Part shown: positions 48,414 through 63,799 of the stretch, one piece after another
How the letters are laid out: each line of letters opens with the position of its first letter
How positions within the stretch are numbered: the first letter of the stretch is position 1
NCBI GenBank assembly: GCA_023138835.1
Contig: JAGLOP010000001.1
Span: forward strand, 124,001 to 188,000
Length of the DNA: 64,000 nucleotides
Source: Arcobacteraceae bacterium
GTDB lineage: Bacteria; Campylobacterota; Campylobacteria; Campylobacterales; Arcobacteraceae
Reading direction: 5' to 3'
Notes under the pieces: model-generated
The model's database searches: none
Seen by the model: only the letters and a program-made list of their open reading frames with translations
What the model was told of the DNA's origin: nothing
Made by a program: the position numbers and the translations under genes

Positions 48414-48445
48414 TTAATACTTTATTAACATTATTATTATAGACT
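48414..48445 (+). promoter_or_regulatory. Direct-repeat promoter motif, site 1 (upstream of ABC ATPase)
   Basis: TTAATACT(48414)...TTAACATT(48425), 11-bp period; -10-like TAGACT at 48440, 15 nt from start of second half-site. Confidence 0.55.
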
Positions 48446-48475
48446 TTTAAAAATAGTTAATAAAAAGGTTTGCAA

Positions 48476-49156
48476 ATGATAGAAGCTAAAAATCTAAAAA
48501 AAGTGTATAGAACCGGTGAATTAGATCTTGAAGTTATAAAAGATTTTTCACTCAAAATCGACAAAGGTGAATTTATATCATTAATCGGTCCAAGCGGTAG
48601 TGGTAAAAGTACAGTTCTAAATATGCTTGGCTGCCTTGACACTCCAACATCAGGAAGTTTAAATATAAATGGTGAAGAGATAACTACATTTGATAAAACC
48701 AAACTTGCAAATTTTCGAGGGGAGCATATAGGATTTATATTTCAAAGCTTTAATCTTATCCCTGTACTTTCAGTTTATGAAAATATTGAATATCCCCTTA
48801 TTATGATACAAAATCTACCGGAAGATGAAAGGAAACGAAGAGTTTTAAATCTACTTGAAGAGGTTGATATGATTGACCAAAAAGATAAGTTCCCAGATCA
48901 AATATCAGGTGGTCAACAGCAAAGAGTAGCAATTGCAAGAGCCTTGGTTACAAAACCGCAAATTGTATTTGCGGATGAACCAACTGCAAACCTTGACAGT
49001 AAAACTGCAAATGCCGTAATAGAGTTGATGAAAAAGATACAAAAAGAACACAATACAACATTTATATTTGCAACTCACGATGAAAAAATTGTTTCTAAAG
49101 TTAATAGATTGATCTCTATTGTTGATGGAAATATTGAAGAAGACAGGAGAGTATAA
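48476..49156 (+). CDS. ABC transporter ATP-binding protein (LolD/MacB-like)
   Basis: GPSGSGKSTVLNMLG, ISGGQQQRVAIARAL, VFADEPTANLD. Confidence 0.95.
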   Translation: MIEAKNLKKVYRTGELDLEVIKDFSLKIDKGEFISLIGPSGSGKSTVLNMLGCLDTPTSGSLNINGEEITTFDKTKLANFRGEHIGFIFQSFNLIPVLSVYENIEYPLIMIQNLPEDERKRRVLNLLEEVDMIDQKDKFPDQISGGQQQRVAIARALVTKPQIVFADEPTANLDSKTANAVIELMKKIQKEHNTTFIFATHDEKIVSKVNRLISIVDGNIEEDRRV

Positions 49157-49157
49157 A

Positions 49158-50402
49158 ATGAATAATATATTTAAAATCTCATATAGAAACTTAAAAAGAA
49201 ATAGCCGTCGTACAATGCTGACTGCTTCACTTATAACTTTAGGAGTTGTATTTGTTTTAGTTTATTCTGCACTTGCCGGAAGTTTCAAAGGGTATATGAT
49301 AGGTCAGATTACTGATAGTATGATGGGTCATATTCAAATTCATAAAAAAGGATTTGTAGCTTCTGTTGAAAATCTTCCTCTTGATAAAAATCTAAATCAA
49401 AAACAATTAGATAAAATAGATGAATTTATCAAAGATAATAAAATGGTAGACAGCTACTCATATAGAATAAAATTCGGGGCTATGTTTTCAAATTTTGTAA
49501 GTTCTACAAATATCAGATTAAATGCGATAATTCCTGAAAATGAATTTAAAACTTTACCTCAACTAAAAGACAGATTAAAAGATTTGATAAATAAACAAAC
49601 TATTTTAAAAAAAGGTGAGATTTTAGTACCTGAGTTACTTGCAAAGGGTATGAAAGTAAAAGCCGGCGATACAATAGTATTGGTTGCAAACAATAAAAGT
49701 GGTTCAGTAAACGGTATCAATTTAAAAGTTGCAGGAATCGTTGAACAAATCAGTGGTCCCGGAGGTCGAGATGGTTATATTCATATAGATGATGCCAAAA
49801 GAGTACTTCGAATAAAAGGGACTGAAGTCAGCGAAATAGTTGTAAGATTAAAAGATGTCTCAATGGTCTCACAAATGCAAAAAGAATTACAACCATTGAC
49901 AAGAATATTAAACAAGATGGATAAACCATCATTTGAAGTGCATCCTTGGACAAAATTAAGTCCATTTTATAATATTATCAAAATGCTGGATGTGATGAAT
50001 ATAGCAATTCAAATTATACTTATCTCTATAGTTTTAATCTCTATTTTAAATGTAATGATTATGAGTGTATATGAGAGAATAAAAGAGGTTGGTACAATTG
50101 CCGCTATGGGAACACCACCATCAACTATAGTAAAATTATTTTTAACAGAAGGTTTGATGCTTGGGGTTTTTGGAGCAATTTTAGGTGGGGTATTATCTTT
50201 AGTAATTGTAAAAATACTTTATATGATGGAGATAAGTTATGCCTTTGGAAAACAAAGTTCACTTATACTTCAACCGACTTTACAGTTAAATGAAGTGGCA
50301 GTAGTAGGTGTAATAGTCGTTATAATATCACTTATAGCATCAGTGAGTCCTGCGATTAAAGCTTCACGACTTGACCCGGTAGAGGCTTTAAGAGCAAATT
50401 AA
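49158..50402 (+). CDS. ABC transporter permease (MacB/FtsX fold); start at internal ATG of the listed ORF
   Basis: FKISYRNLKRNSRRTMLTASLITLGVVFV...SVYERIKEVGTIAAMGTPPSTIVKLFLTEG...SPAIKASRLDPVEALRAN. Confidence 0.92.
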   Translation: MNNIFKISYRNLKRNSRRTMLTASLITLGVVFVLVYSALAGSFKGYMIGQITDSMMGHIQIHKKGFVASVENLPLDKNLNQKQLDKIDEFIKDNKMVDSYSYRIKFGAMFSNFVSSTNIRLNAIIPENEFKTLPQLKDRLKDLINKQTILKKGEILVPELLAKGMKVKAGDTIVLVANNKSGSVNGINLKVAGIVEQISGPGGRDGYIHIDDAKRVLRIKGTEVSEIVVRLKDVSMVSQMQKELQPLTRILNKMDKPSFEVHPWTKLSPFYNIIKMLDVMNIAIQIILISIVLISILNVMIMSVYERIKEVGTIAAMGTPPSTIVKLFLTEGLMLGVFGAILGGVLSLVIVKILYMMEISYAFGKQSSLILQPTLQLNEVAVVGVIVVIISLIASVSPAIKASRLDPVEALRAN

Positions 50403-50472
50403 ATTGTAAATAGTTATTAATTTAATATTATCTTTGCTAGAATTAAATTAATTTTTATATGAGGAGTTACTT

Positions 50473-50865
50473 GTGAAAATATTAGTTATAGATAAGGAGA
50501 AAGAAAATCTTTTATCTATTAAAAAAACTTTTGAAGAAGAGAGAGGATTTCATGTCGACCTTTCTTATTCTTATGAAGAAACAACTTCATTTTTAAATAA
50601 TAATAAATATGAATTTATTATTATTGATTTTAATATACCTTCAGGCAATGAGATATTGGAAGCAATATTAAAAGACAATAAAAAACAAAAAATCATAACT
50701 CTAAGTGAAATAAACGGCGTCAGTGAAAAAAAAGGGTGTGATTACTGTATTGAAAATTTTAATAAACGAAGATTAGTAAAAAAATGTACTCCACAAGATA
50801 TATTAAATATTATTGATATATTTGATGATTTTACTTGTTATTTTAAAAATAAATTTGCAGAGTAA
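50473..50865 (+). CDS. Receiver-like single-domain protein, atypical
   Basis: ILVIDKEKENLLSIKKTFEEE...FIIIDFNIPSGNEILEAIL. Confidence 0.65.
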   Translation: MKILVIDKEKENLLSIKKTFEEERGFHVDLSYSYEETTSFLNNNKYEFIIIDFNIPSGNEILEAILKDNKKQKIITLSEINGVSEKKGCDYCIENFNKRRLVKKCTPQDILNIIDIFDDFTCYFKNKFAE

Positions 50866-50880
50866 AGTGTTGCCAACTTA

Positions 50881-50912
50881 TTAATAAATCATTAACAAAT
50901 ATTACATATACT
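50881..50912 (+). promoter_or_regulatory. Direct-repeat promoter motif, site 2 (upstream of DUF1104-like/LolA-like/OMP genes)
   Basis: TTAATAAATCA(50881)-TTAACAAATAT(50892); -10-like TATACT at 50907, 15 nt from start of second half-site. Confidence 0.55.
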
Positions 50913-50942
50913 TTTATAAGATAAAAAATCAAAGGATATATC

Positions 50943-51284
50943 ATGACAAAATTAATGGGAATAGTATTAATTGCAACATCACTGTTTGCAGTAGATTATA
51001 CAAATATGAGTGTAGATGAATTAGCAAACTTAAGAGGCAGTGTCCCAGCTGAAGACAGAGACGCATTTAGAAGTGCATTTCAAGAAAAAACCCAATATAT
51101 GTCACCGGAAGAAAGAATGGCTTATTCAAAAGGTCAAGGTCAGGGTAATGGACAAATGACACGGCAACGAAATCAAACAAAAACTCAACAAAGACTAAGA
51201 GACGGCAGTGGAAGCGGTGGACAATATCAAGGTTCAAGAAGCGGCGGGTCTCGTGGCGGTGGCGGCGGTGGAGGTAGAAGATAA
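50943..51284 (+). CDS. Small exported protein, DUF1104-like N-terminal half with Gly/Arg/Gln-rich C-terminus
   Basis: Signal peptide; DYTNMSVDELANLRGSVPAEDRDAFRSAFQEKTQYMSPEERMAYSKG then GSRSGGSRGGGGGGGRR. Confidence 0.65.
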   Translation: MTKLMGIVLIATSLFAVDYTNMSVDELANLRGSVPAEDRDAFRSAFQEKTQYMSPEERMAYSKGQGQGNGQMTRQRNQTKTQQRLRDGSGSGGQYQGSRSGGSRGGGGGGGRR

Positions 51285-51997
51285 TGTATAAATTATTTAC
51301 AACTATTCTTTTAGCAACATCATTATTTGCCAGTGACTTACTTCTTCAAGTAGATAAAAACCTACAACCAGGAAGCAGTGAAAGTTATAAGAAACTTATA
51401 AATATAGAACCAGATGGCAGTAAAAAAGAGTTTTTACTTTATCAAGCAAAAACCGGCTCTGATAAAATGGTATCCTCTTTTTTAAAGCCTGAGTCTGAAA
51501 AAGGGAGAAATACTTTAAGACTTGGTGATAATATGTGGCTTTATATGCCGGCAGTCGGGCGACCTATTAGAATCACATCTATGCAAAGTGTTGTAGGCGG
51601 CGTATTTAACAACAGTGATATTATGAGAGTTGATTTTAGCAGTGAATATACAGTTCTAAAACAAGAAGAGAAAGGTGATGAATATATTCTTAGCCTGAAA
51701 GCCAAAAATGACACAGTTGCTTATGATAAATTAATTATGAGCATAGATAAAAAAACAATTACACCTAAAGTTATAGAGTGTTACAGTTCAACTGATATGT
51801 TAATCAAAACACTTTTTTATAAAGATATTAAAGATTTTGGAAATGGAATTGTGCGACCTGCTGTAGTAGAAACTGTAAGTCCATTTTATAAAGATTACAA
51901 ATCAATTATGGTTTATGGAAAGATCACACCAAAAGAATTTGCACCAGAAGCATTTACAATTGATAATATAAATAAAGTAAATGATTTAAGAAGATAA
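51284..51997 (+). CDS. LolA-like outer-membrane lipoprotein-sorting family protein
   Basis: Signal peptide; MWLYMPAVGRPIRITSMQSVVGGVFNNSDIMRVDFSSEY. Confidence 0.8.
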   Translation: MYKLFTTILLATSLFASDLLLQVDKNLQPGSSESYKKLINIEPDGSKKEFLLYQAKTGSDKMVSSFLKPESEKGRNTLRLGDNMWLYMPAVGRPIRITSMQSVVGGVFNNSDIMRVDFSSEYTVLKQEEKGDEYILSLKAKNDTVAYDKLIMSIDKKTITPKVIECYSSTDMLIKTLFYKDIKDFGNGIVRPAVVETVSPFYKDYKSIMVYGKITPKEFAPEAFTIDNINKVNDLRR

Positions 51998-52000
51998 AAA

Positions 52001-53077
52001 ATGCGAATAATTGTAGCGTCACTCATTTTTAGCAGTTTAATTTTTGCTGATAACTATAGCTTCGATATGGATGAAATTGAAGTTAAAACTTATGAATATT
52101 CAGGGTATTTAAAAGCTGAACATAAACATCAACAAACAAAAAATAATGATACTTTAAACAGTACATACGGCGAAGCGCAATTAAGTTTTAAATACTTTAA
52201 AGATGACTACAGTTTAAATAGTGAATTTCAGGCAAATCACAATAATATAAATAATGAAGAAAAAAATATTTATACTGTAAATCAACTTTTTTTTAACTAT
52301 AAAGCATCATCAAATGACAGTTTTAATCTAGGTAAGAAATCTTTAAAATGGGGAAAAGGATATTTTTTTAACCCTATTGCCTTTTTAGATAGAAAAAAAG
52401 ATCCTAATAATCCTGAAGCTTCAAAAGAGGGATATCTATTTGCAAACTATAAATATAATAAAAGTTATGATGGAGATTTGAAGAATTTTAGTTTTGACAT
52501 AGTTTATATGCCAACTTCAAATAATACAAATGAAGACTACTATAATCAATCTTCTAACAATATAGCACTTAAAAGTTACTTTTTATATCTTGATACTGAC
52601 ATTGATATTATATATCTTTTTAACAATAAGTTAAAAGATAAAATAGGGATAGACTTTTCAAAAAATATCGAAACAAACTTTGAAATTCATGGAGAAATGG
52701 CAAAACAGTTAAATGGATATAAATCATACCTGTTTGGAATAAAATATCTAACTGCCGGTGATTTAACTATCACATCTGAATATTTTTATCAATCAGAACA
52801 ATTAAGTAAAACAAATCCTTTTTATGATAATAAATATTTTATAAATAAATTTTCACAAAAAGAGCCTTTTGAAATTGTATACTCGTCTGTTTATTATAAA
52901 AACAGTTTAAACTTAAGAGATAACTCTTTTCAAAATAGTTTAGGTATAACTTACAGTTTTAAAAACAATTTTGAGCTTGATATTTCATATAATAAAAATA
53001 AAGGAAATGCTACAAGTGAATTTGGCAGTAAACTTATAAGCGATACGATTTGGACAAAAGTCAGTTGGTATTTTTAG
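52001..53077 (+). CDS. Predicted outer-membrane beta-barrel protein
   Basis: Signal peptide; alternating strands; C-terminal ...TIWTKVSWYF ending in aromatic Phe. Confidence 0.7.
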   Translation: MRIIVASLIFSSLIFADNYSFDMDEIEVKTYEYSGYLKAEHKHQQTKNNDTLNSTYGEAQLSFKYFKDDYSLNSEFQANHNNINNEEKNIYTVNQLFFNYKASSNDSFNLGKKSLKWGKGYFFNPIAFLDRKKDPNNPEASKEGYLFANYKYNKSYDGDLKNFSFDIVYMPTSNNTNEDYYNQSSNNIALKSYFLYLDTDIDIIYLFNNKLKDKIGIDFSKNIETNFEIHGEMAKQLNGYKSYLFGIKYLTAGDLTITSEYFYQSEQLSKTNPFYDNKYFINKFSQKEPFEIVYSSVYYKNSLNLRDNSFQNSLGITYSFKNNFELDISYNKNKGNATSEFGSKLISDTIWTKVSWYF

Positions 53078-53079
53078 AT

Positions 53080-53490
53080 TTAGACTTTCGTAAGACACTT
53101 TTCACAAATGCCAGATAATGATATTGAACTTGCCTCAATTTGGAAATTTCTATGTTTTGATACTTCATTTAATAAAAAAGTTGTATCAATAACTTCATCT
53201 TCGATACTACCACATTTTTTACATATTAAATGAATATGTGGTAGTTTTGTTGTTTCATACATATTTTTTTGGTTTGCCACTTTTACTTCTGTGATAATAT
53301 CTTTTGAAACTAACTCATTTAAATTTCTATATAATGTTGCTTTTGAAAGTGTTGGACAACTACTAATAACTAAATTATAAAGCTTATCTATATCTATATG
53401 TTTTGCTTTTTCTAATTCTTCTAAAATTACCAATCTTTGATGTGTGGCTTTTAAATCTTTATGTTGCAAAATAGTCTTAAAGTCAGTCAT
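53080..53490 (-). CDS. Fur-family regulator (PerR-like)
   Basis: KATHQRLVILEEL, LSKATLYRNLNEL, HIHLICKKCGSIED, two CxxC. Confidence 0.88.
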   Translation of the reverse strand: MTDFKTILQHKDLKATHQRLVILEELEKAKHIDIDKLYNLVISSCPTLSKATLYRNLNELVSKDIITEVKVANQKNMYETTKLPHIHLICKKCGSIEDEVIDTTFLLNEVSKHRNFQIEASSISLSGICEKCLTKV

Positions 53491-53646
53491 TTAATTTGTC
53501 TCTTTGTATTATAATTTTTAATTATTATAGCAGAATTTATTATAATATAGTTTAAATATTAATTAAGAAGAAATACTAAATAGGATTTATTATTATTTAA
53601 GGTTAACTATTATAAACTTTTGTTAATCTAAAAATAAGGAGAGATT

Positions 53647-54678
53647 ATGAATAAAACAAATATTGTTTTAAGTGGTTTATTAGTTGCAAGTTTAAGTACA
53701 TTTGCTATGGGTGATGCTTTGGTTAAAAAAGCTAAAAATGCAGGTATGAAGCCAATACCATCAAGCCAATTAGAGTTATTAAAGCTTATTGAAGATCCTA
53801 AAAATCCAATAACTGATGCAAAAGTTACATTAGGTAAAAGATTATTCTTTGAACCAAGATTGTCAAAAAGTGGACTAATCTCATGTAATACTTGTCATAA
53901 CTTAGGTATGGGTGGAGTTGATGGAGTAGCAGCAGCTGTTGGTCATAAATGGACAGCAAATCCTGCACACTTAAATTCACCAACTGTTTATAATGCTGTG
54001 TTTAATTCATCGCAATTTTGGGATGGTAGAGATCCTCATTTAGAAGCTCAAGCTCAAGGTCCTATGCAAGCAGGTCCAGAGATGGCAGCACCTAAATCAC
54101 TTGTAGAGGGTCGTATAAATTCTATGCCAGCTTATGTTGCAGAATTTAAAGCAACATATGGTGATGATGTAAAAATCAGCTTTGAACTAATTACAGCTAC
54201 TATTGGACTGTTTGAGAGAACTCTTGTAACTTCATCAAGATTTGATCAATTCATGGAAGGTGATAGTAATGCTTTAAATAAGAAAGAAAAAACCGGTCTT
54301 AAAGTATTTATAGATAAAGGTTGTACATCTTGTCATAATGGTGTAGGTATCGGTGGAACAATGCAGCCATTCCAAGTTGCAAATAAATATAAATTTGCTA
54401 GCTTAGGTGGATTCCAAGGTGATAAAAATGGTATGGTAAAAACACCAACATTAAGAAATATTGAAGAGACTGCTCCATATTTCCATAATGGTGCTATTTG
54501 GTCATTAAGTGATGCAGTTAAAGAGATGGGTTCTACTCAACTTGGAATTAAAATTAGTGATAAAGAAGCTAAACAAATATCATGTTTCTTAAAATCATTA
54601 ACAGGTGATAAGGGAGATATTTCATATCCTCAACTTCCTGTAATCACAAATAAAACTCCAAAACCAGATATGAACTAA
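53647..54678 (+). CDS. Di-haem cytochrome c peroxidase, copy 1
   Basis: CNTCH and CTSCH haem motifs; GGVDG, KTPTLRNIEETAPYFHNG. Confidence 0.94.
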   Translation: MNKTNIVLSGLLVASLSTFAMGDALVKKAKNAGMKPIPSSQLELLKLIEDPKNPITDAKVTLGKRLFFEPRLSKSGLISCNTCHNLGMGGVDGVAAAVGHKWTANPAHLNSPTVYNAVFNSSQFWDGRDPHLEAQAQGPMQAGPEMAAPKSLVEGRINSMPAYVAEFKATYGDDVKISFELITATIGLFERTLVTSSRFDQFMEGDSNALNKKEKTGLKVFIDKGCTSCHNGVGIGGTMQPFQVANKYKFASLGGFQGDKNGMVKTPTLRNIEETAPYFHNGAIWSLSDAVKEMGSTQLGIKISDKEAKQISCFLKSLTGDKGDISYPQLPVITNKTPKPDMN

Positions 54679-54680
54679 TA

Positions 54681-54710
54681 TAAAAAGAAGAGATTTGTCT
54701 CTTCTTTTTA
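54681..54710 (+). terminator. Terminator-like hairpin between the two peroxidase genes
   Basis: TAAAAAGAAGAGA-tttg-TCTCTTCTTTTTA 13-bp stem. Confidence 0.75.
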
Positions 54711-54723
54711 AAGAAAGAAAATT

Positions 54724-55782
54724 ATGACACATTCGAAGAATTTGATTTATAAAACCTTACAATTAAATATCATTTTATTTTTATGTATAAGTATAAATAT
54801 ATTTGCTTCTAGCGATATTGAATTAATAAATAGAGCTAAAAAAGCAGATATGATGCCTATACCTCAGAGTAAATTAGAACTTTTAGAAATTATTGACGAT
54901 AAAGAAAATCCAATAACTAATGCAAAAGTTGAACTAGGTAAAAAACTATTTTTTGAACCAAGATTATCAAAAAGTGGATTAATTTCGTGTAACAGTTGTC
55001 ATCATTTAGGAATGGGTGGAGTTGATGGAATAAGTGTGGCTACGGGAGATAAATGGTCGGCAAATCCTTTGCATCTTAACTCTCCTACAGTATATAATGC
55101 AGTTTTTAATTTTGAACAATTTTGGGATGGGAGAAGTCCACATCTTGCTGACCAAGCACAAGGTCCTATTCAAGCTCCTTTTGAAATGGCTGCATCACAA
55201 GAACTTGTATTACAAAGAATAACTTCTATACCACAATATGTTAATGAATTTAAAAAAGCATATACAGCTGATATAAAAATAACTTTTAAACTTATTGCAG
55301 ATACTATTGCTATTTTTGAAAAAACTTTAATCACACCATCAAGATTTGATAAGTTTTTACATGGGGACACTAATGCACTAAATAAAGATGAGAAAGAGGG
55401 ATTATCAGTTTTTTTAGATTTAGGATGTGCAAGGTGTCATAAAGATATTGCTTTAGGTGGTTCTATGCAACCTTTTGATACAGGCAAAAGATATAAATAT
55501 AGAAATTTAGGTGCCTTTGCTGGAAATAATAATCATCTTGTAAAAACACCAACATTAAGAAATATTGAACAAACTGCTCCATATTTTCATAATGGTGCAA
55601 TTTGGGATCTAAAAGAAGCAGTTAAAGAGATGGGTAAAATTCAACTTGTATTAGGAATAAGTAATGAAGATGCTAAAAAAGTAGTGACATTTTTAAAATC
55701 ACTTACAGGAGAGAAGCCTAATATTATATATCCACAATTGCCTGTAAGTAGTAAAACAACACCTAGACCTTTAGCAGATTAA
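54724..55782 (+). CDS. Di-haem cytochrome c peroxidase, copy 2
   Basis: CNSCH and CARCH haem motifs; highly similar to the upstream ORF. Confidence 0.93.
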   Translation: MTHSKNLIYKTLQLNIILFLCISINIFASSDIELINRAKKADMMPIPQSKLELLEIIDDKENPITNAKVELGKKLFFEPRLSKSGLISCNSCHHLGMGGVDGISVATGDKWSANPLHLNSPTVYNAVFNFEQFWDGRSPHLADQAQGPIQAPFEMAASQELVLQRITSIPQYVNEFKKAYTADIKITFKLIADTIAIFEKTLITPSRFDKFLHGDTNALNKDEKEGLSVFLDLGCARCHKDIALGGSMQPFDTGKRYKYRNLGAFAGNNNHLVKTPTLRNIEQTAPYFHNGAIWDLKEAVKEMGKIQLVLGISNEDAKKVVTFLKSLTGEKPNIIYPQLPVSSKTTPRPLAD

Positions 55783-55799
55783 CTCAACTTAATATAATA

Positions 55800-55831
55800 T
55801 TAACATTATATTAATACTTCTATTTTATACT
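55800..55831 (+). promoter_or_regulatory. Direct-repeat promoter motif, site 3 (upstream of response regulator)
   Basis: TTAACATTATA-TTAATACT; -10-like TATACT at 55826, 15 nt from start of second half-site. Confidence 0.6.
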
Positions 55832-55903
55832 TTCATATAAAAGTGATTTGGAAGTAAGTCCTTTTGCGATACAATTTTATTAAAGATTATATGGTATTTT
55901 TAA

Positions 55904-56584
55904 ATGATGACTAAAAGGAATTGCGTGCCACATAAAAAAATTTTATTAGTTGAAGATGATTTAATATTAGGTGAAAGTTTACAAGAATTACTTGAAGATG
56001 AGAATTTTAAAGTAACTTGGGTAAAGGACGGCAATCAAGCTATAGATGAGACCTATGAAAATAAATTTGACCTCTTTTTATTTGATGTTGATATCCCTTT
56101 TATAAATGGTTTTGACTTGCTTGACCAATTACGGCAAAGTGGTGATGAAACTCCTTGTATATTTCTTACTGCTAAAGTAGATATAGATTCTTTATCCACC
56201 GGTTTTGATATGGGGGCAGATGATTACATCAAAAAGCCGTTTGATACTGATGAATTAATTATTCGTATAAATACACAGATTAGAAAATCGTTTAATTCAC
56301 ATAAAGAAACTATCACTTATGGTGATATTATTTATAATATATCTTCTCAAACTATTACAAAAAATGAAAAGACAATCCAGCTCTCCCCTGCCGAATTAAA
56401 ACTTTTTGAACTATTTATAAAAAATATAAATAAACCTATAACAAAAGAAGATATTTTATACCATATTCATAACGGAGAAGAGGGAAGCGAAGCAGCTCTT
56501 AGAGTTCAAATATCAAAACTTAAAAAACTAGGCTTAGAGATTGTAAACCAAAGAGCAATAGGATATAAACTTGAAAAATTATGA
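55904..56584 (+). CDS. OmpR-family response regulator
   Basis: ILLVEDDLILGESL, LFDVDIPFINGFDLL, GADDYIKKPFDTDEL; winged-helix C-terminus. Confidence 0.92.
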   Translation: MMTKRNCVPHKKILLVEDDLILGESLQELLEDENFKVTWVKDGNQAIDETYENKFDLFLFDVDIPFINGFDLLDQLRQSGDETPCIFLTAKVDIDSLSTGFDMGADDYIKKPFDTDELIIRINTQIRKSFNSHKETITYGDIIYNISSQTITKNEKTIQLSPAELKLFELFIKNINKPITKEDILYHIHNGEEGSEAALRVQISKLKKLGLEIVNQRAIGYKLEKL

Positions 56585-57608
56585 GAAAAAATCATTTATT
56601 CAAATATTTTTAGGTTATTTTATATCTGTAACTATTTTTATTTTATTGCTTGGATTTTTATATTTTAATCAACAAAAAACATTTTTAATGCAAAAAACAG
56701 CTATGAATATGCATCAATATTTAACAATAGTAAAACAATCAAATTTTTCTTATATACAAGATGGATTTAGTTATGAAGCTGTAAAAAATGCCAAAGTAAA
56801 AAAACAGTTACCGCAAAAAGAAGGAAATGTTTATTTTAAAGCATTTTCAAATCACTTTATAGTCAAGATAGATGCCTCGATTGTAGATAAGGAACTTCAA
56901 GAGATACAAAATTTTACTATACTGTTACAAGTACTTTTAATTTTGTTTTTTGCCATTATCAGTTTTGCACTTGCCAGAAAATCATTAAAACCTATGGTAG
57001 ATACTATTTCTCATCTTGATAGATTTGTCAGCGATTTAGTTCATGATTTAAATACACCTGTAACTTCTATTTTATTAAATACCAAAATGTTAAAAAAGAA
57101 TGCTTCAGATAAAGAATTAAAAAAAATAGACAGAATAGAAAACAGTGCCAAAAACATATCATCTTTATATGCTAATTTGGAAGTTTTATTAAATGAAAAT
57201 ACATTAATAAAAGAAAAATTTGATTTATCTGTTTTGATAACAAATATTATTGAAATATATCAATCTTTATATCCAAATATTAAGTTTGAGTTTCTCGGAG
57301 AACCTATAATAGTTATCTCAAATCAAAATGCTATGAAAAGAATTATTGATAACATTATTTCAAATGCCTGTAAATACAGTATTGATGACAATCCAACTAT
57401 TTTTATTGGTTTTAAAAATAATACCTTAACTATAAAAGACAATGGCAAAGGTATAAAATATCCAGAGAAAATTTTTGAAAGAAGTTATAAAGAAACTGAA
57501 AGTGGACACGGGATAGGTATGCATATAGTACATAGATTATGTGAACAGCTATCACATAAAATCAATATAAAATCTGAAAGTGGTACTATAATCACTATTC
57601 TATTTTAG
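56571..57608 (+). CDS. Sensor histidine kinase, partner of 55904..56584
   Basis: VHDLNTPVTSIL H-box, NAISNACKYS-type N-box (NIISNACKYS), GHGIGMHIVHRLCEQ; 14-nt overlap with the regulator. Confidence 0.9.
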   Translation: MKNYEKKSFIQIFLGYFISVTIFILLLGFLYFNQQKTFLMQKTAMNMHQYLTIVKQSNFSYIQDGFSYEAVKNAKVKKQLPQKEGNVYFKAFSNHFIVKIDASIVDKELQEIQNFTILLQVLLILFFAIISFALARKSLKPMVDTISHLDRFVSDLVHDLNTPVTSILLNTKMLKKNASDKELKKIDRIENSAKNISSLYANLEVLLNENTLIKEKFDLSVLITNIIEIYQSLYPNIKFEFLGEPIIVISNQNAMKRIIDNIISNACKYSIDDNPTIFIGFKNNTLTIKDNGKGIKYPEKIFERSYKETESGHGIGMHIVHRLCEQLSHKINIKSESGTIITILF

Positions 57609-57647
57609 AATATACCAAGAATTAGAAAAAAGGCAAGAGGTTCCTTA

Positions 57648-59105
57648 TTAGGACAATGGAAGTCTAATTGTAAATTCTGCTCCAATATAACTTTCATCAT
57701 TGTATTTATACTTTACATTATTAGCTTCAATAGTTCCACCCATACTGTCTACAATTAAGTTATATGTCATATGAAGACCTAGTCCGGTACCTTGAGATTT
57801 ATGTTTGGTTGTAAAATATGGTTCAAATATTTTTGGCATTACATCTTCAGGTATTCCACCGGCATTATCTTTTATTTTTATAATTGCATTGTTGTCTTGT
57901 AATAATGTATCTATAAATACCAATCTAGTCTCATCAATATTTAATAATGCATCTTTTGCATTATTAAATATATTTATCATACATTGATGAAGTTCATTTG
58001 GATATCCATTTATATTTATATTTTCTTTTATATTAAGAATTAATTCTATATTATTATTTTTTATTGAAGGGTTTACTAGATTTATAAAACTATCTATAGT
58101 ATCTTTTAAATTAAAGTTTATAAGTTTTTTATCACCTTTTATAAAGTTTTTAAAATCATCTATCGTTTTTGAAAGATATTGTGCATTCTCATTAATGATT
58201 TCACAAGTTTCAAGTAAATCTTTGTCATCAAGAACATCAAGTTCTTTTTTTAATTTAATGGCAGTAGAACCTGTAGATATAACTGATAATGGCTGTCTCC
58301 ACTGATGCGCAATATTTCCTATCATTTCCCCCATAGATGCCATTTTTTGAGCTTCAAATAGTTGTTTTTCTTTATAAATATTTTTTTCAACTTCTTCTTT
58401 TACTCTTATTTCAAGGTTTTCATTTAAATCTCGTATTTTTTTATGGTTTTGTTCAATTATTTTTGCAAGATATCCAAACTCATCTTTTTTATTATGATTA
58501 AATTCTAATTCTTCTTTTTCATCTAAATTTTTTAGTTTATTGATTATTTTATTAATTGGTTTTGTAATTATTACAGAGACTATATATGAAAAAACAATTG
58601 TAACCAGAAGAAAAATAAAAAACATTTTTAATATTTCACTTTCTTTAGATTTAATCATCTGTTCAAATATTTCATTATTGTTTTCAATTACAAGATACCC
58701 TACAACCTTTTTGGACAAAATAACAGGCAAAAAGTACAAAAGCGGGTTTTCGTTTTGTAAATTTAGAAGCTTTTCAAAATCTTTGTATTTTGTAAACATG
58801 ATTTTATCATTATCTCTTTGAGCGAATATATATCCATTCTTATTTAAAATATAGATATTTTTAAAATAAGGGTTGTCAAAAGAGTCTATAGTATATTTTA
58901 CATTTGTATAATTTAAGTTATATAAATCACTTTGTACATTTTTATTTAAAAGTTTTGCACTGCTTTGATTTAAATTTTGCAAATATGTATTTAGCTGTTT
59001 CTTTGACATATTAATATCATAAAGCATATGCATTGTAATCATTATAGTAAAGAAAACTACAATAACTACAAATATTTTAAACTTTATTGAATGAAAAAAA
59101 TTCAT
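57648..59105 (-). CDS. Membrane sensor histidine kinase (HQWRQPL type) with HAMP
   Basis: Two TMs, ITKPINKIINKLKNLD HAMP, GNIAHQWRQPLSVIS, GTGLGLHMTYNLI. Confidence 0.92.
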   Translation of the reverse strand: MNFFHSIKFKIFVVIVVFFTIMITMHMLYDINMSKKQLNTYLQNLNQSSAKLLNKNVQSDLYNLNYTNVKYTIDSFDNPYFKNIYILNKNGYIFAQRDNDKIMFTKYKDFEKLLNLQNENPLLYFLPVILSKKVVGYLVIENNNEIFEQMIKSKESEILKMFFIFLLVTIVFSYIVSVIITKPINKIINKLKNLDEKEELEFNHNKKDEFGYLAKIIEQNHKKIRDLNENLEIRVKEEVEKNIYKEKQLFEAQKMASMGEMIGNIAHQWRQPLSVISTGSTAIKLKKELDVLDDKDLLETCEIINENAQYLSKTIDDFKNFIKGDKKLINFNLKDTIDSFINLVNPSIKNNNIELILNIKENININGYPNELHQCMINIFNNAKDALLNIDETRLVFIDTLLQDNNAIIKIKDNAGGIPEDVMPKIFEPYFTTKHKSQGTGLGLHMTYNLIVDSMGGTIEANNVKYKYNDESYIGAEFTIRLPLS

Positions 59106-59936
59106 TTAGAGACCTTGTATAATCTTCATATCATCATTGGTTAAGGGTGAAAATTTTTTTGTTTTAGAAAACTTTTTCAAAGTCTCTTTTCCAACTCTGC
59201 TTTTATCCATATCATACAAAATATCTAAAATCTCTTTTTTCAATTTAGGATTAATTCTTTTTGAGAATGAAACCAGATGTCTAGGTATTAGTTTTGATGT
59301 ATATATAATTTTAAACATATTTTTATCAAATGATTCAAAAGTTTTATCATCTGTTGCTCCTGCATCTACTTTAGAGTAAAGTACCCAAGCAGCAGTATTC
59401 TTTTCACTTCTTGCATAATCATAGTTTACGCTTTCCTTTTCACCTTTTTTTGATACTTTTAAACCTTTTTTCTCAATTGCTTTTTTAGGGATAAAAAAAC
59501 TTGAAGTTGAAAATTCATCTTCAAATGCTATAGTTTTTCCTTTTAAATCTTCAATTGAATTTATGTTGCTATTTTTTTTAACAAAGATTACACTTCTATA
59601 TCCCTCTATCCCTTTTTTCCATCTTTTACATTCAATAGTTATATCACTCTTTTTTTGTACTAAAAGTGTAGGATAAACACTGTCAATAAAAATATCTAAC
59701 TTATTATCACTTATAAGTTTAATTACAGTATCTAGATTTTTTGCTATCTCTACATCAACTTTTATATTTTTTTGCTTTAGTTTTTCCTGCAGATAATCTG
59801 CTACTGCTTGAAATTTGTATATTTTTTCTTTAGGTTCTAAATCTATTGTTCCAATTGTAATTTTATCTTGAGCATAAATTGATAAACTTAAAAACGTAGT
59901 AAAGATAATCAATTTTATAATTCTTTTTGTTAACAT
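59106..59936 (-). CDS. PhnD-like periplasmic binding protein (start taken at Met 59936)
   Basis: Signal peptide; ITIGTIDLEPKEKIYKFQAVADYLQEKL, LKGKTIAFEDEFSTSSFFIPKKAI, SKVDAGATDDKTFESF. Confidence 0.85.
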   Translation of the reverse strand: MLTKRIIKLIIFTTFLSLSIYAQDKITIGTIDLEPKEKIYKFQAVADYLQEKLKQKNIKVDVEIAKNLDTVIKLISDNKLDIFIDSVYPTLLVQKKSDITIECKRWKKGIEGYRSVIFVKKNSNINSIEDLKGKTIAFEDEFSTSSFFIPKKAIEKKGLKVSKKGEKESVNYDYARSEKNTAAWVLYSKVDAGATDDKTFESFDKNMFKIIYTSKLIPRHLVSFSKRINPKLKKEILDILYDMDKSRVGKETLKKFSKTKKFSPLTNDDMKIIQGL

Positions 59937-60002
59937 AACTTCTCCCTGCTCTAGACTTACTATTGTAACATATTTTATATAAATGGCACAAAGCACTTAA
60001 TG

Positions 60003-60034
60003 TTAACATTCTATTAATACTTTTAAAGTAATAT
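60003..60034 (+). promoter_or_regulatory. Direct-repeat promoter motif, site 4 (upstream of MMPL/RND transporter)
   Basis: TTAACATTCTA-TTAATACT; -10-like TAATAT at 60029, 15 nt from start of second half-site. Confidence 0.6.
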
Positions 60035-60065
60035 TCTATTTATATTTACAAAAAGGTAACTCTAA

Positions 60066-62510
60066 ATGGCTTGGAAAAAAAAAGTTGAACACAAATTTGA
60101 ACATATTTCAGATTTTATATTTGATAATAGAATTAAGGTAATTGTAGCGGTTCTAGCTATCGTAATTGCGATGGCTTCGCAGATGAAATACTTAACAGTT
60201 GATACTTCAACGGAAGGGTTTTTACATAAAGAAGATCCTTTGAGAATTGAGTATGATAAATTCAGAAATCAGTTTGGACGGGATGAAAAAGTTTTAATCG
60301 CAATACAAAGCGAAAATATATTTACAATTAAATTTTTAACTAAATTAAATAAACTTCACAAAGAACTTGAAAATAATCTACCATATATAGAAGATGTAAA
60401 CTCACTTATAAATGCCAGAAACACCAGAGGTACTGTTGATAGTTTAATAGTTGATGATCTGTTTGAAGAGTTACCCTCTGATCAAAAAGCATTGGCTTTT
60501 AAAAAGAAATTGGCACAAAACAATCCACTGTTTAAAAACTTGATTATAGATGAAGCTGGAACTATTACAACGATTGTCATTGATACTCAAACATATACTT
60601 CTTTAGATAAGGATGGTAAACCGCTTCCGAAAGTTGAATCTGAAGATGATGAGTTTGATGATGAGGAGGTAGAATCTAATTTGGCTGATGACAAAGATAA
60701 AGAGTTTTTAACTGACTGGGAAAATGTACAAATTGTTAAAAAGACAAATGAGATAGTTGCCAAATATCAAGCAGATGATTTTAATATCTTGGTATCTGGA
60801 ACTGCTGTTATAAATGCTGAATTAAAAGCATCTATGACAAAAGATATGCAAAAATTTATTAAGATCGTTTTACTTGTAATCGCATTTTTTCTGGCACTTC
60901 TTTTTAGAAGAATAAGCGGTGTTGTTTTACCACTTATTACAGTTGCATTTACTATTGTATCTGCATTATCACTTATGGCAATGTTTGGTGCTCCGATTAC
61001 TGTCGTAACTCAAATTTTACCATCATTTTTACTTGCAGTTACTATTGGAGCCAGTATCCATCTACTTTCAATTTTCTTTAAACAATTCAATTTATCAAAA
61101 GATAAAAAAGCCTCTTTAAGATATGCGATGGGGCATAGTGGATTGGCTATTGTAATGACTTCACTTACTACTGCTGCGGGACTTTGGTCTTTTTCATTCT
61201 CTGAACTGGCTCCCGTGGCTGATTTGGGTAAATTTGCCAGTGCTGGAGTTTTAATCGGACTTTTATATACACTTGTACTTTTACCTGCGGTACTTTCTCT
61301 TATAAAATTAAAACCAAAAAATATACTTATAGAAAATGATGAAGAGGTACATACATTTATGGATAGGTTGCTGATTAAAATAGCCAACATCAGTGTTGCT
61401 TATCCAAAAAGAATTATAGCTATCACTACTGTTATTATTTTAGTTTCATTAGCAGTTGCTTCACAATTGAGATTTTCGCATAAGCCAATTATTTGGTTTG
61501 ATAAAGACCATCAAGTAAGAAAAGCTACAAGTATAGTAGATGATAAACTTAAAGGTTCAGTTACTTTAGAAATAATAGTAGATACAAAGCGCGAAAATGG
61601 ACTTTATGAGCCTGAAATTTTAAATTCTATTGATAATTTTTCAAAAGAAATTATGACTATAAAAAGTGATAAATATTTTATAGGGAAAACACTTAGTTTG
61701 GTTGATATCATTAAAGAGACAAATAAAGCTTTAAATGAAAATAACAAAGAAGCATATATTATTCCTCAAAACAAAAATCTAATAGCACAAGAGTTACTTT
61801 TATTTGAAAACTCTGGAAGTGATGATTTAGAAGATTTTGTTGACAGTGCATTTAGTAAAGCTAGAATTACAGTAAAATTACCATATATTGATGCTATGGA
61901 TTATGTGAATTTATTAAAAGAGATAAACACGCAGATAGATAAGCACTTTAAAGGAAAAGCAGAAGTAACTGTCACAGGAATTTCTAACTTACTTGCTCGT
62001 ATTATGGAAGCTGCCATTACCAGTAGTGCAGTAAGTTATGCAATAGCTTTAACGCTTATTACAATTATGATGTTAATACTAATTGGAAATATTAAAATAG
62101 GTTTGGTCTCAATGATACCAAATATCTCTCCAATACTTATGATGACAACAGTAATGGTAATATTTGATATGCCGCTTGATATGTTTACTATGCTAATAGG
62201 TGCTATTGCTATTGGTTTGGCCGTTGATGATACAGTACACTTTATGCACAACTTTAGAAGGTATGAGCTTTTATATAATGATATTGATAAAGCTGTAAGA
62301 CTTACACTTCTTACAACCGGTCGAGCGATGGTAGTTACTACTATAGTATTATCATTTGGATTCTTTGTATTTATGTTTGCCAGTATGTCAAATATATTTA
62401 ACTTTGGATTATTAACGGGTATTGCCATTATTATTGCTGTTTTAGCTGATTTCTTTTTAGTACCTGCTCTTATGAAAGTTATGATACATAATAGGAAAGA
62501 TATAAAATAA
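60066..62510 (+). CDS. MMPL-type RND superfamily exporter
   Basis: Two 6-TM halves; IGASIHLLSIFFKQF and IGLAVDDTVHFMHNFRRY. Confidence 0.92.
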   Translation: MAWKKKVEHKFEHISDFIFDNRIKVIVAVLAIVIAMASQMKYLTVDTSTEGFLHKEDPLRIEYDKFRNQFGRDEKVLIAIQSENIFTIKFLTKLNKLHKELENNLPYIEDVNSLINARNTRGTVDSLIVDDLFEELPSDQKALAFKKKLAQNNPLFKNLIIDEAGTITTIVIDTQTYTSLDKDGKPLPKVESEDDEFDDEEVESNLADDKDKEFLTDWENVQIVKKTNEIVAKYQADDFNILVSGTAVINAELKASMTKDMQKFIKIVLLVIAFFLALLFRRISGVVLPLITVAFTIVSALSLMAMFGAPITVVTQILPSFLLAVTIGASIHLLSIFFKQFNLSKDKKASLRYAMGHSGLAIVMTSLTTAAGLWSFSFSELAPVADLGKFASAGVLIGLLYTLVLLPAVLSLIKLKPKNILIENDEEVHTFMDRLLIKIANISVAYPKRIIAITTVIILVSLAVASQLRFSHKPIIWFDKDHQVRKATSIVDDKLKGSVTLEIIVDTKRENGLYEPEILNSIDNFSKEIMTIKSDKYFIGKTLSLVDIIKETNKALNENNKEAYIIPQNKNLIAQELLLFENSGSDDLEDFVDSAFSKARITVKLPYIDAMDYVNLLKEINTQIDKHFKGKAEVTVTGISNLLARIMEAAITSSAVSYAIALTLITIMMLILIGNIKIGLVSMIPNISPILMMTTVMVIFDMPLDMFTMLIGAIAIGLAVDDTVHFMHNFRRYELLYNDIDKAVRLTLLTTGRAMVVTTIVLSFGFFVFMFASMSNIFNFGLLTGIAIIIAVLADFFLVPALMKVMIHNRKDIK

Positions 62511-62516
62511 TATTAT

Positions 62517-62939
62517 ATGGATTATTTATATCTGTTTTTTAGTGCTTTAATCTCAGCAACTTTATTCCCTCTTGGGAGTGAAGCCCTGCTCCTTTATGAC
62601 TTAAGCTTAGAATTTAATATTTATTTATTGTTTCTTTTTGCTACCATTGGAAATACTTTAGGTTCTGTTATAAACTATTGGATTGGATTAAAAGGGGAAA
62701 TTTATCTCGTAGAAAAAAAAGTTTTAAACGAACAAAAGATTATAAAAGCACAAAAATATTTTAATAAATACGGTGGTTACAGCTTACTTTTCTCTTGGCT
62801 TCCCATCATAGGTGATCCTATCACTTTTATAGCAGGAATTGTCAAATATAATTTAAAGAAATTTTTACTTTTGGTTTTAATTGCCAAAGGTGGAAGATAT
62901 TTATTTTTAATTACAAGCTATTATCTTTATACTAATTGA
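62517..62939 (+). CDS. DedA-like membrane protein (YqaA type)
   Basis: ATIGNTLGSVINYWIG...YSLLFSWLPIIGDPITFIAGIVKYNLKKFL. Confidence 0.82.
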   Translation: MDYLYLFFSALISATLFPLGSEALLLYDLSLEFNIYLLFLFATIGNTLGSVINYWIGLKGEIYLVEKKVLNEQKIIKAQKYFNKYGGYSLLFSWLPIIGDPITFIAGIVKYNLKKFLLLVLIAKGGRYLFLITSYYLYTN

Positions 62940-62941
62940 TA

Positions 62942-62973
62942 TTAACATTACATTAATACTATTTATATAGTAT
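62942..62973 (+). promoter_or_regulatory. Direct-repeat promoter motif, site 5 (upstream of second LolA-like gene)
   Basis: TTAACATTACA-TTAATACT; -10-like TAGTAT at 62968, 15 nt from start of second half-site. Confidence 0.6.
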
Positions 62974-63004: not shown

Positions 63005-63799
63005 ATGATAAAGAAAATACTATTAACACTAAGCCTGGGAGCTACTTTACTTTTAGCTGATACTGGACGAGAAATTATGCAAAAAGTACTTGATAGAGAT
63101 GATGGAGATAATGTTATTACAAATATGCAGATGCAGCTTATTGATAAAAATGGTCATAAAAGAATAAGAGATATGAAAACATTTTCAAAAGATAAAGGGG
63201 AAGATGAGTTAAAATTAATCTTCTTTCTAAGTCCAAGTGATGTTAAAAATACTGCTTTTTTAACTTATGATTATGCTGATGATGACAAAGATGATGATCA
63301 GTGGTTATATCTGCCGGCTTTAAATAAAACTAAAAGAATTCCTGCATCAGATAAAGACAGTAGTTTTATGGGAAGTGACTTTTCTTATTCTGATATGACT
63401 GAACCGGTTTTAAATGACTATACTTTTAAAATATTAAAAGAAAGTGTAGTGAAAAGAAAAAGTGGTAATGAAAAAGTTTGGCAAATTGAAGTTACTCCTA
63501 AAAATCAAGAGGTTATAGATGAAACTGGATATTTAAAAAGTATAGCTTATGTAAGACAAGATAATTATATGGTAACTCGTGCTAAATATTATCTTAAAAA
63601 AGCTGGTCGTGTTAAATATATGGATGTAAAAAAAGTTGAAAAGATTGACGGTATTGATGTAGCAACACAAACAACTATGACTACTAAAAAAGGGAAAAGA
63701 ACTATTCATAAAACTATTTTAATTCAAAGTGATGTCAAAATGAATCAAGACCTAAAAGAAGAGCTGTTTACCGTTAGAACTATTGAAAAAGGTTTATAA
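63005..63799 (+). CDS. LolA-like outer-membrane lipoprotein-sorting family protein
   Basis: Signal peptide; QWLYLPALNKTKRIPASDKDSSFMGSDFSYSDM. Confidence 0.85.
   Translation: MIKKILLTLSLGATLLLADTGREIMQKVLDRDDGDNVITNMQMQLIDKNGHKRIRDMKTFSKDKGEDELKLIFFLSPSDVKNTAFLTYDYADDDKDDDQWLYLPALNKTKRIPASDKDSSFMGSDFSYSDMTEPVLNDYTFKILKESVVKRKSGNEKVWQIEVTPKNQEVIDETGYLKSIAYVRQDNYMVTRAKYYLKKAGRVKYMDVKKVEKIDGIDVATQTTMTTKKGKRTIHKTILIQSDVKMNQDLKEELFTVRTIEKGL

Follow-up and report, generated by a model that had tools for sequence, protein, structure and literature searches.

A tandem repeat of an 8-nt half-site, with a period of 11 nt and a fixed distance to a -10-like hexamer, is very probably the operator of an autoregulated OmpR/PhoB-type response regulator (55904..56584, + strand; the 55904 regulator), which would activate its own gene together with envelope-export and cytochrome genes. 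Five such sites lie in the 64,000-nucleotide stretch of DNA analysed here, which we call the window. From the sequence comparisons we read them as the real, conserved operator of a so far unnamed OmpR-type system, whose regulon is in part clustered; it is new as a regulon and ordinary in kind. A literature search found no paper on this regulator–operator system. The earlier note on this DNA had proposed a candidate local regulon. The regulon stands, through its conservation with the 55904 regulator, and its being strictly local does not, with further sites on contigs C12, C22 and C3. The placement of tandem 11-bp half-sites over the -35 region under this regulator, predicted there, is strongly supported by conservation.

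All features of the window described here are on the + strand. Site 1 (48414..48445, TTAATACTTTATTAACATT-N7-TAGACT) falls in the putative promoter of an operon for a LolD-like ABC ATPase (48488..49156, start assigned by homology, the ORF being listed from a TTG at 48470) and a LolCE/MacB-FtsX-like ABC permease (49119..50402). A stand-alone receiver domain protein (50473..50865) follows. Site 2, the weak one (50881..50912, TTAATAAATCATTAACAAA-N7-TATACT), precedes a DUF1104-like small secreted protein (50943..51284, below the Pfam cut-off), the LolA-like protein LolA1 (51284..51997, PF17131) and OMP1 (52001..53077), a putative outer-membrane protein that had no match in a Pfam search and is kept in the operon. 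Two tandem MauG/CCP-type di-haem peroxidase genes (53647-55782) then separate OMP1 from the regulator; in the relative G047, OMP1 runs straight into the regulator without them. Site 3 (55800..55831, TTAACATTATATTAATACT-N7-TATACT) is in the promoter region of the response regulator itself, which is followed by its presumed cognate membrane histidine kinase (56571..57608). Site 4 (60003..60034, TTAACATTCTATTAATACT-N7-TAATAT) is upstream of an MMPL/HAE3-type RND exporter (60066..62510), whose operon includes a DedA/VTT-domain membrane protein (62517..62939); the two genes adjoin in G043 too. Site 5 (62942..62973, TTAACATTACATTAATACT-N7-TAGTAT) precedes LolA2 (63005..63799, PF17131) and, beyond the window, a DUF1302 outer-membrane protein.

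Each of the five repeat strings reported earlier was recovered on the + strand in its reported position. In 5/5 sites the period is 11 nt and the TANNNT hexamer starts exactly 15 nt downstream of the first base of the second half-site, and sites 3–5 are identical at 17/19 positions, all as claimed. Sites 1 and 2 had been called weaker, which is true of site 2, with its four core mismatches, and not of site 1, which is a perfect match. The consensus half-site is TTAAYAYT. When periods of 8 to 23 were scanned, the window contained four perfect pairs at period 11 and none at any other period. All four are intergenic, on the + strand and 38-86 nt before a start codon. They are direct rather than inverted repeats of 11-bp period at promoters, as an OmpR/PhoB-type tandem operator should be. 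An additional half-site, weaker than the other two, lies 11 nt further upstream in some cases: at 55789 (TTAATATA) ahead of site 3, at C12:188280 and on G047 contig 27. This arrangement is compatible with cooperative loading.

The earlier note had also proposed a genome-wide motif scan. In the 2.12-Mb genome there are five perfect tandem matches at period 11, four in the window and one at C12:188291, while 30 other spacings together gave 28 perfect pairs, or about 0.9 per spacing. The same five are the only perfect matches genome-wide to a composite 32-nt pattern that includes the -10, and all are in promoters. One-mismatch matches are frequent, and most of those inspected sit inside ORFs. Motif counts in genomes without a close regulator ortholog are not clearly lower. 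The scan thus returned an excess at period 11, and by themselves the match counts are only moderately above chance. We rejected motif counting as proof for its weakness, and conservation is therefore needed to decide.

A position matrix was built solely from sites of G047, G043 and G070, with the window sites left out. It places the five noted sites at ranks 1–5 in the window, in the order 5, 1, 3, 4, 2, although the sites in the relatives had been found with a pattern derived from this window, so that their selection is not fully independent. Even site 2 scores 17.1, against 9.3 for the sixth candidate. In 12 order-2 Markov windows the best scores were 8.4-15.8, except for one of 27.0, and several high scores never occurred together. 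A high-scoring match at L293:3513 was set aside as lying within coding sequence. That the repeats are chance products of AT-rich DNA picked out by eye could draw on the 29.8% G+C, the common and mostly intragenic loose matches, the modest spacing counts and the one Markov window with a high-scoring match. It is nevertheless very improbable given the top five ranks under a foreign matrix, the fixed -10 spacing, and conservation before orthologous genes whose flanks have diverged.

The window belongs to the Arcobacteraceae, the family of Poseidonibacter ostreae. A few genomes encode close orthologs of the 55904 regulator, namely G047 (81%), G070 (73%) and G043 (72%); the next stand at 59-62% identity in G096, G093, G054 and G098. 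The gene order is LolA1-OMP1-regulator-kinase in G047, regulator-kinase-MMPL in G070, and regulator-kinase, then MMPL-DedA, in G043. In relatives with a close ortholog, a site is found 58-88 nt upstream of the MMPL, LolA1/LolA2 and cytochrome orthologs. The LolA2 promoters of G070 and G043 have a perfect operator with unchanged -10 spacing, which also holds for the MMPL, LolA1, cytochrome and AcrB-type permease operators of the relatives. Across the three LolA2 promoters compared, what stays invariant is the operator with its -10, within diverged flanks. The MMPL promoters, with an operator that is perfect in G043 and has two mismatches in G070, repeat this pattern of a kept operator in drifted flanks less cleanly. 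The G047 LolA1 operon, orthologous to that behind site 2, has a one-mismatch operator, a better copy than site 2 itself. Instead of selection, the copying of a single promoter segment in the recent past, or a mobile element, might have produced sites that agree as closely as sites 3–5 do. We regard this as extremely unlikely, for the sequence outside the operator differs between the window sites, and orthologous promoters retain only the operator and the -10.

Outside the window, in the perfect site at C12:188291, missed in the earlier note, TAATAT begins exactly 15 nt from the first base of the second half-site; the gene that follows encodes a 244-aa periplasmic cytochrome c, and its G047 ortholog is preceded by a one-mismatch operator. 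On C22, the gene of an AcrB-type RND permease has a site conserved in two relatives, with one core mismatch in each of G000 (this genome), G043 and G047. On the best reading of these sequences, the C12 cytochrome and the C22 permease would belong to the regulon, making it partly clustered and not purely local. An operator also stands before small cytochrome c genes of G043 and G047; in G047 one of these genes is the first gene of a small cytochrome c-lolD-lolE contig, and the operator before it, upstream of lolD-lolE, is perfect. An EF-hand protein gene on C3 of G000 has a one-mismatch site upstream, and at locus L152 a site precedes a similar EF-hand gene just downstream of a regulator homolog. 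The C3 gene is probably also a target. The secreted EF-hand family has three copies in this genome (L262:3131-3790 and L293), one of them with the one-mismatch operator.

The 55904 regulator has the domains of the OmpR/PhoB family, with scores above cut-off for both Response_reg (98.4 bits) and Trans_reg_C (35.1 bits). Among 13 homologs, D61, T89 and K111 are invariant and D18/D19 nearly so, as expected of a phospho-acceptor and active site. The overlapping HisKA + HATPase_c gene keeps its place beside the regulator in those orthologous loci that were inspected, as befits a cognate kinase. The recognition helix ALRVQISKLKK is near-identical in all orthologs of at least 59% identity. A site is present before the regulator's own gene in 11/23 homologs of at least 43% identity, compared to 1/22 below 43% (Fisher P = 0.001). 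The former include genomes labelled Sulfurimonas, Sulfurovum and Helicobacteraceae (e.g., L152, L155, L164, L174-L176), and a few of the homologs' own-gene sites have one extra nt in the spacing. In Poseidonibacter ostreae, the closest cultured homolog found (62%), no site stands directly before the regulator, and there is one before another gene ~5.6 kb upstream of it. At L050 and L051 (G054, G098), the regulator-kinase pair is divergent from an efflux operon of the TolC-MFP-RND type, and tandem sites in the shared intergenic region face both ways. The own-gene, efflux-operon and EF-hand sites point to the 55904 regulator as the probable binder and to efflux or envelope functions.

A rival reading accepts the sites as real operators but assigns them to a second OmpR-type regulator encoded in this genome, one with TTAACA-like tandem repeats as its target. 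With 22 Trans_reg_C proteins in G000, other candidate binders exist. Many genomes of the family also contain a distinct related system before TonB/metal genes, copper-chaperone genes among them, with near-identical geometry, TTAACACT-N3-TTAACACT-N7-TANNNT (e.g., G032, G034). At L093-L104 (G032, G034, G042, G044, G046, G050), TTAACACTNNNTTAACACT-N7-TANNNT promoters precede TonB receptors, ExbB and PCuAC/SCO-type genes, names that were read from the protein sequences rather than from searches, and in two cases they stand beside another OmpR-type regulator. These promoters look like a separate unnamed metal/TonB regulon. It differs from the one described here in its C-rich half-site and its TonB/ExbB/PCuAC targets, and the adjacent regulator, ~41-42% identical to the 55904 regulator, has a different recognition helix. 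TTAACA-type tandem repeats are therefore not exclusive to the 55904 regulator; similar half-sites are common to related regulators.

The lolD promoters also bear on the choice of binder. The operator is perfect in G051 (L145:6893) and present as a 2-mismatch copy in G054, yet the 55904 regulator has no close ortholog in G051, an exception that fits binding by another protein. At L146, L147 and L148 (G039, G037, G038), the two-component system that comes after a lolD-lolE-LolA1-OMP1 module is another OmpR-type one, as if the regulator had been swapped between genera; the module-linked regulator is 27-32% identical to the 55904 regulator. In these three genomes, which have no close ortholog of it, no site was found before LolA1, nor before lolD in G037 and G039. 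MMPL and LolA2 paralogs in other genomes likewise have no site upstream, though, as different proteins, they make only a mild control. A different binder seems unlikely on several grounds: the distribution of the sites follows the 55904 clade, and its own promoter, over several genera and families; the regulator shares synteny with its targets; the LolA1 modules beside another two-component system lack the sites; and the TonB-linked regulators differ in their recognition helix.

With the 55904 regulator as the preferred binder, the kinase (56571-57608) would phosphorylate the response regulator (55904-56584), and two phosphorylated molecules would bind head to tail on the two TTAAYAYT half-sites, one helical turn apart. 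If the -10 hexamer occupies about -12 to -7, one half-site would fall at about -38 to -31 and the other at about -27 to -20, which covers the -35 region. The operator would then replace the -35 element, with the bound regulator recruiting RNA polymerase to a -10 at fixed distance. In the window, the targets would be the regulator's own operon, the LolD/LolCE-like ABC transporter, the LolA-like/OMP set, MMPL with DedA, and the second LolA-like/DUF1302 set; outside it, the periplasmic cytochrome c, the AcrB-type RND permease and probably the EF-hand protein.

That the regulator binds these sites directly, that it activates instead of repressing, and that its signal is of an envelope or efflux type are all inferences. 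Activation is favored because the spacing to the -10 is fixed, as contact with the polymerase would need. Campylobacterota promoters are often without a -35 element. If so, an activator is not strictly needed, and a regulator bound at about -38 to -20 could occlude the polymerase; that the 55904 regulator binds and represses in this way is a minority possibility that we take seriously. Repression would, however, tolerate sliding, whereas the spacing is fixed in nearly all copies, including those of distant homologs. The arrangement also matches that of PhoB (PMC4415409) and of PceP, for which activation from operators that overlap the -35 box has been proposed (PMC7755780).

The target set does not qualify as Lol lipoprotein export (LolCDE/LolA). 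The ATPase scores 238.8 bits with its best NCBIfam LolD model, against an equivalog cut-off of 307.75, the permease scores 109.8 against 362.45 for LolCE, and the LolA-like proteins match PF17131 and not LolA. A bolder reading, which we offer tentatively and consider rather improbable, is that one two-component system and one operator govern a dedicated second envelope-export route in Campylobacterota, in which the LolCDE-like ABC transporter, two LolA-like carriers, the MMPL exporter and two outer-membrane proteins would together carry a lipid or lipoprotein through the envelope while periplasmic cytochromes are induced alongside. In any case, an unnamed regulator clade of Campylobacterota gains an explicit predicted operator and target list, making its function testable. 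LolA-like, MMPL, LolCDE-like and outer-membrane genes, otherwise annotated separately and with functions unknown, are tied together in a way that suggests one task, and the operator should be usable for reading regulons from uncultured genomes.

Among known systems, DccRS and PhosRS have operators that are direct repeats of ~11-nt period, with half-sites (TTCAC for DccRS, GTTTC for PhosRS) that differ from TTAAYAYT. Both are OmpR-type systems of Campylobacter jejuni that activate small gene sets, as the system described here would, and the genes activated by DccRS encode periplasmic and membrane proteins (PMC9449129). The present system also resembles PhoB and the PHO box of E. coli and others, where two 11-nt direct-repeat units, each of 7 conserved and 4 less conserved nt, are bound head to tail (PMC4415409). 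The likeness lies in tandem 11-nt direct repeats and an OmpR/PhoB-family regulator, its binding being a prediction here; the half-site is TTAAYAYT rather than CTGTCAT. Nor is this the pho regulon, since the regulator scores 116.5 bits against a PhoB equivalog cut-off of 296.2, and none of the targets is a phosphate-uptake gene. PceP of Sulfurospirillum binds, by gel shift, a CTATA direct repeat with gaps of 6 (an 11-nt period) that overlaps the -35 box (PMC7755780). It differs in its half-sites (CTATW-N17-CTATW) and in serving organohalide respiration genes. The present system, with its predicted regulon, is like that of PceP in layout: both belong to Campylobacterota and have an OmpR-family regulator, direct repeats of 11-nt period at the -35 position, and few, clustered targets, the regulator's own operon being one.
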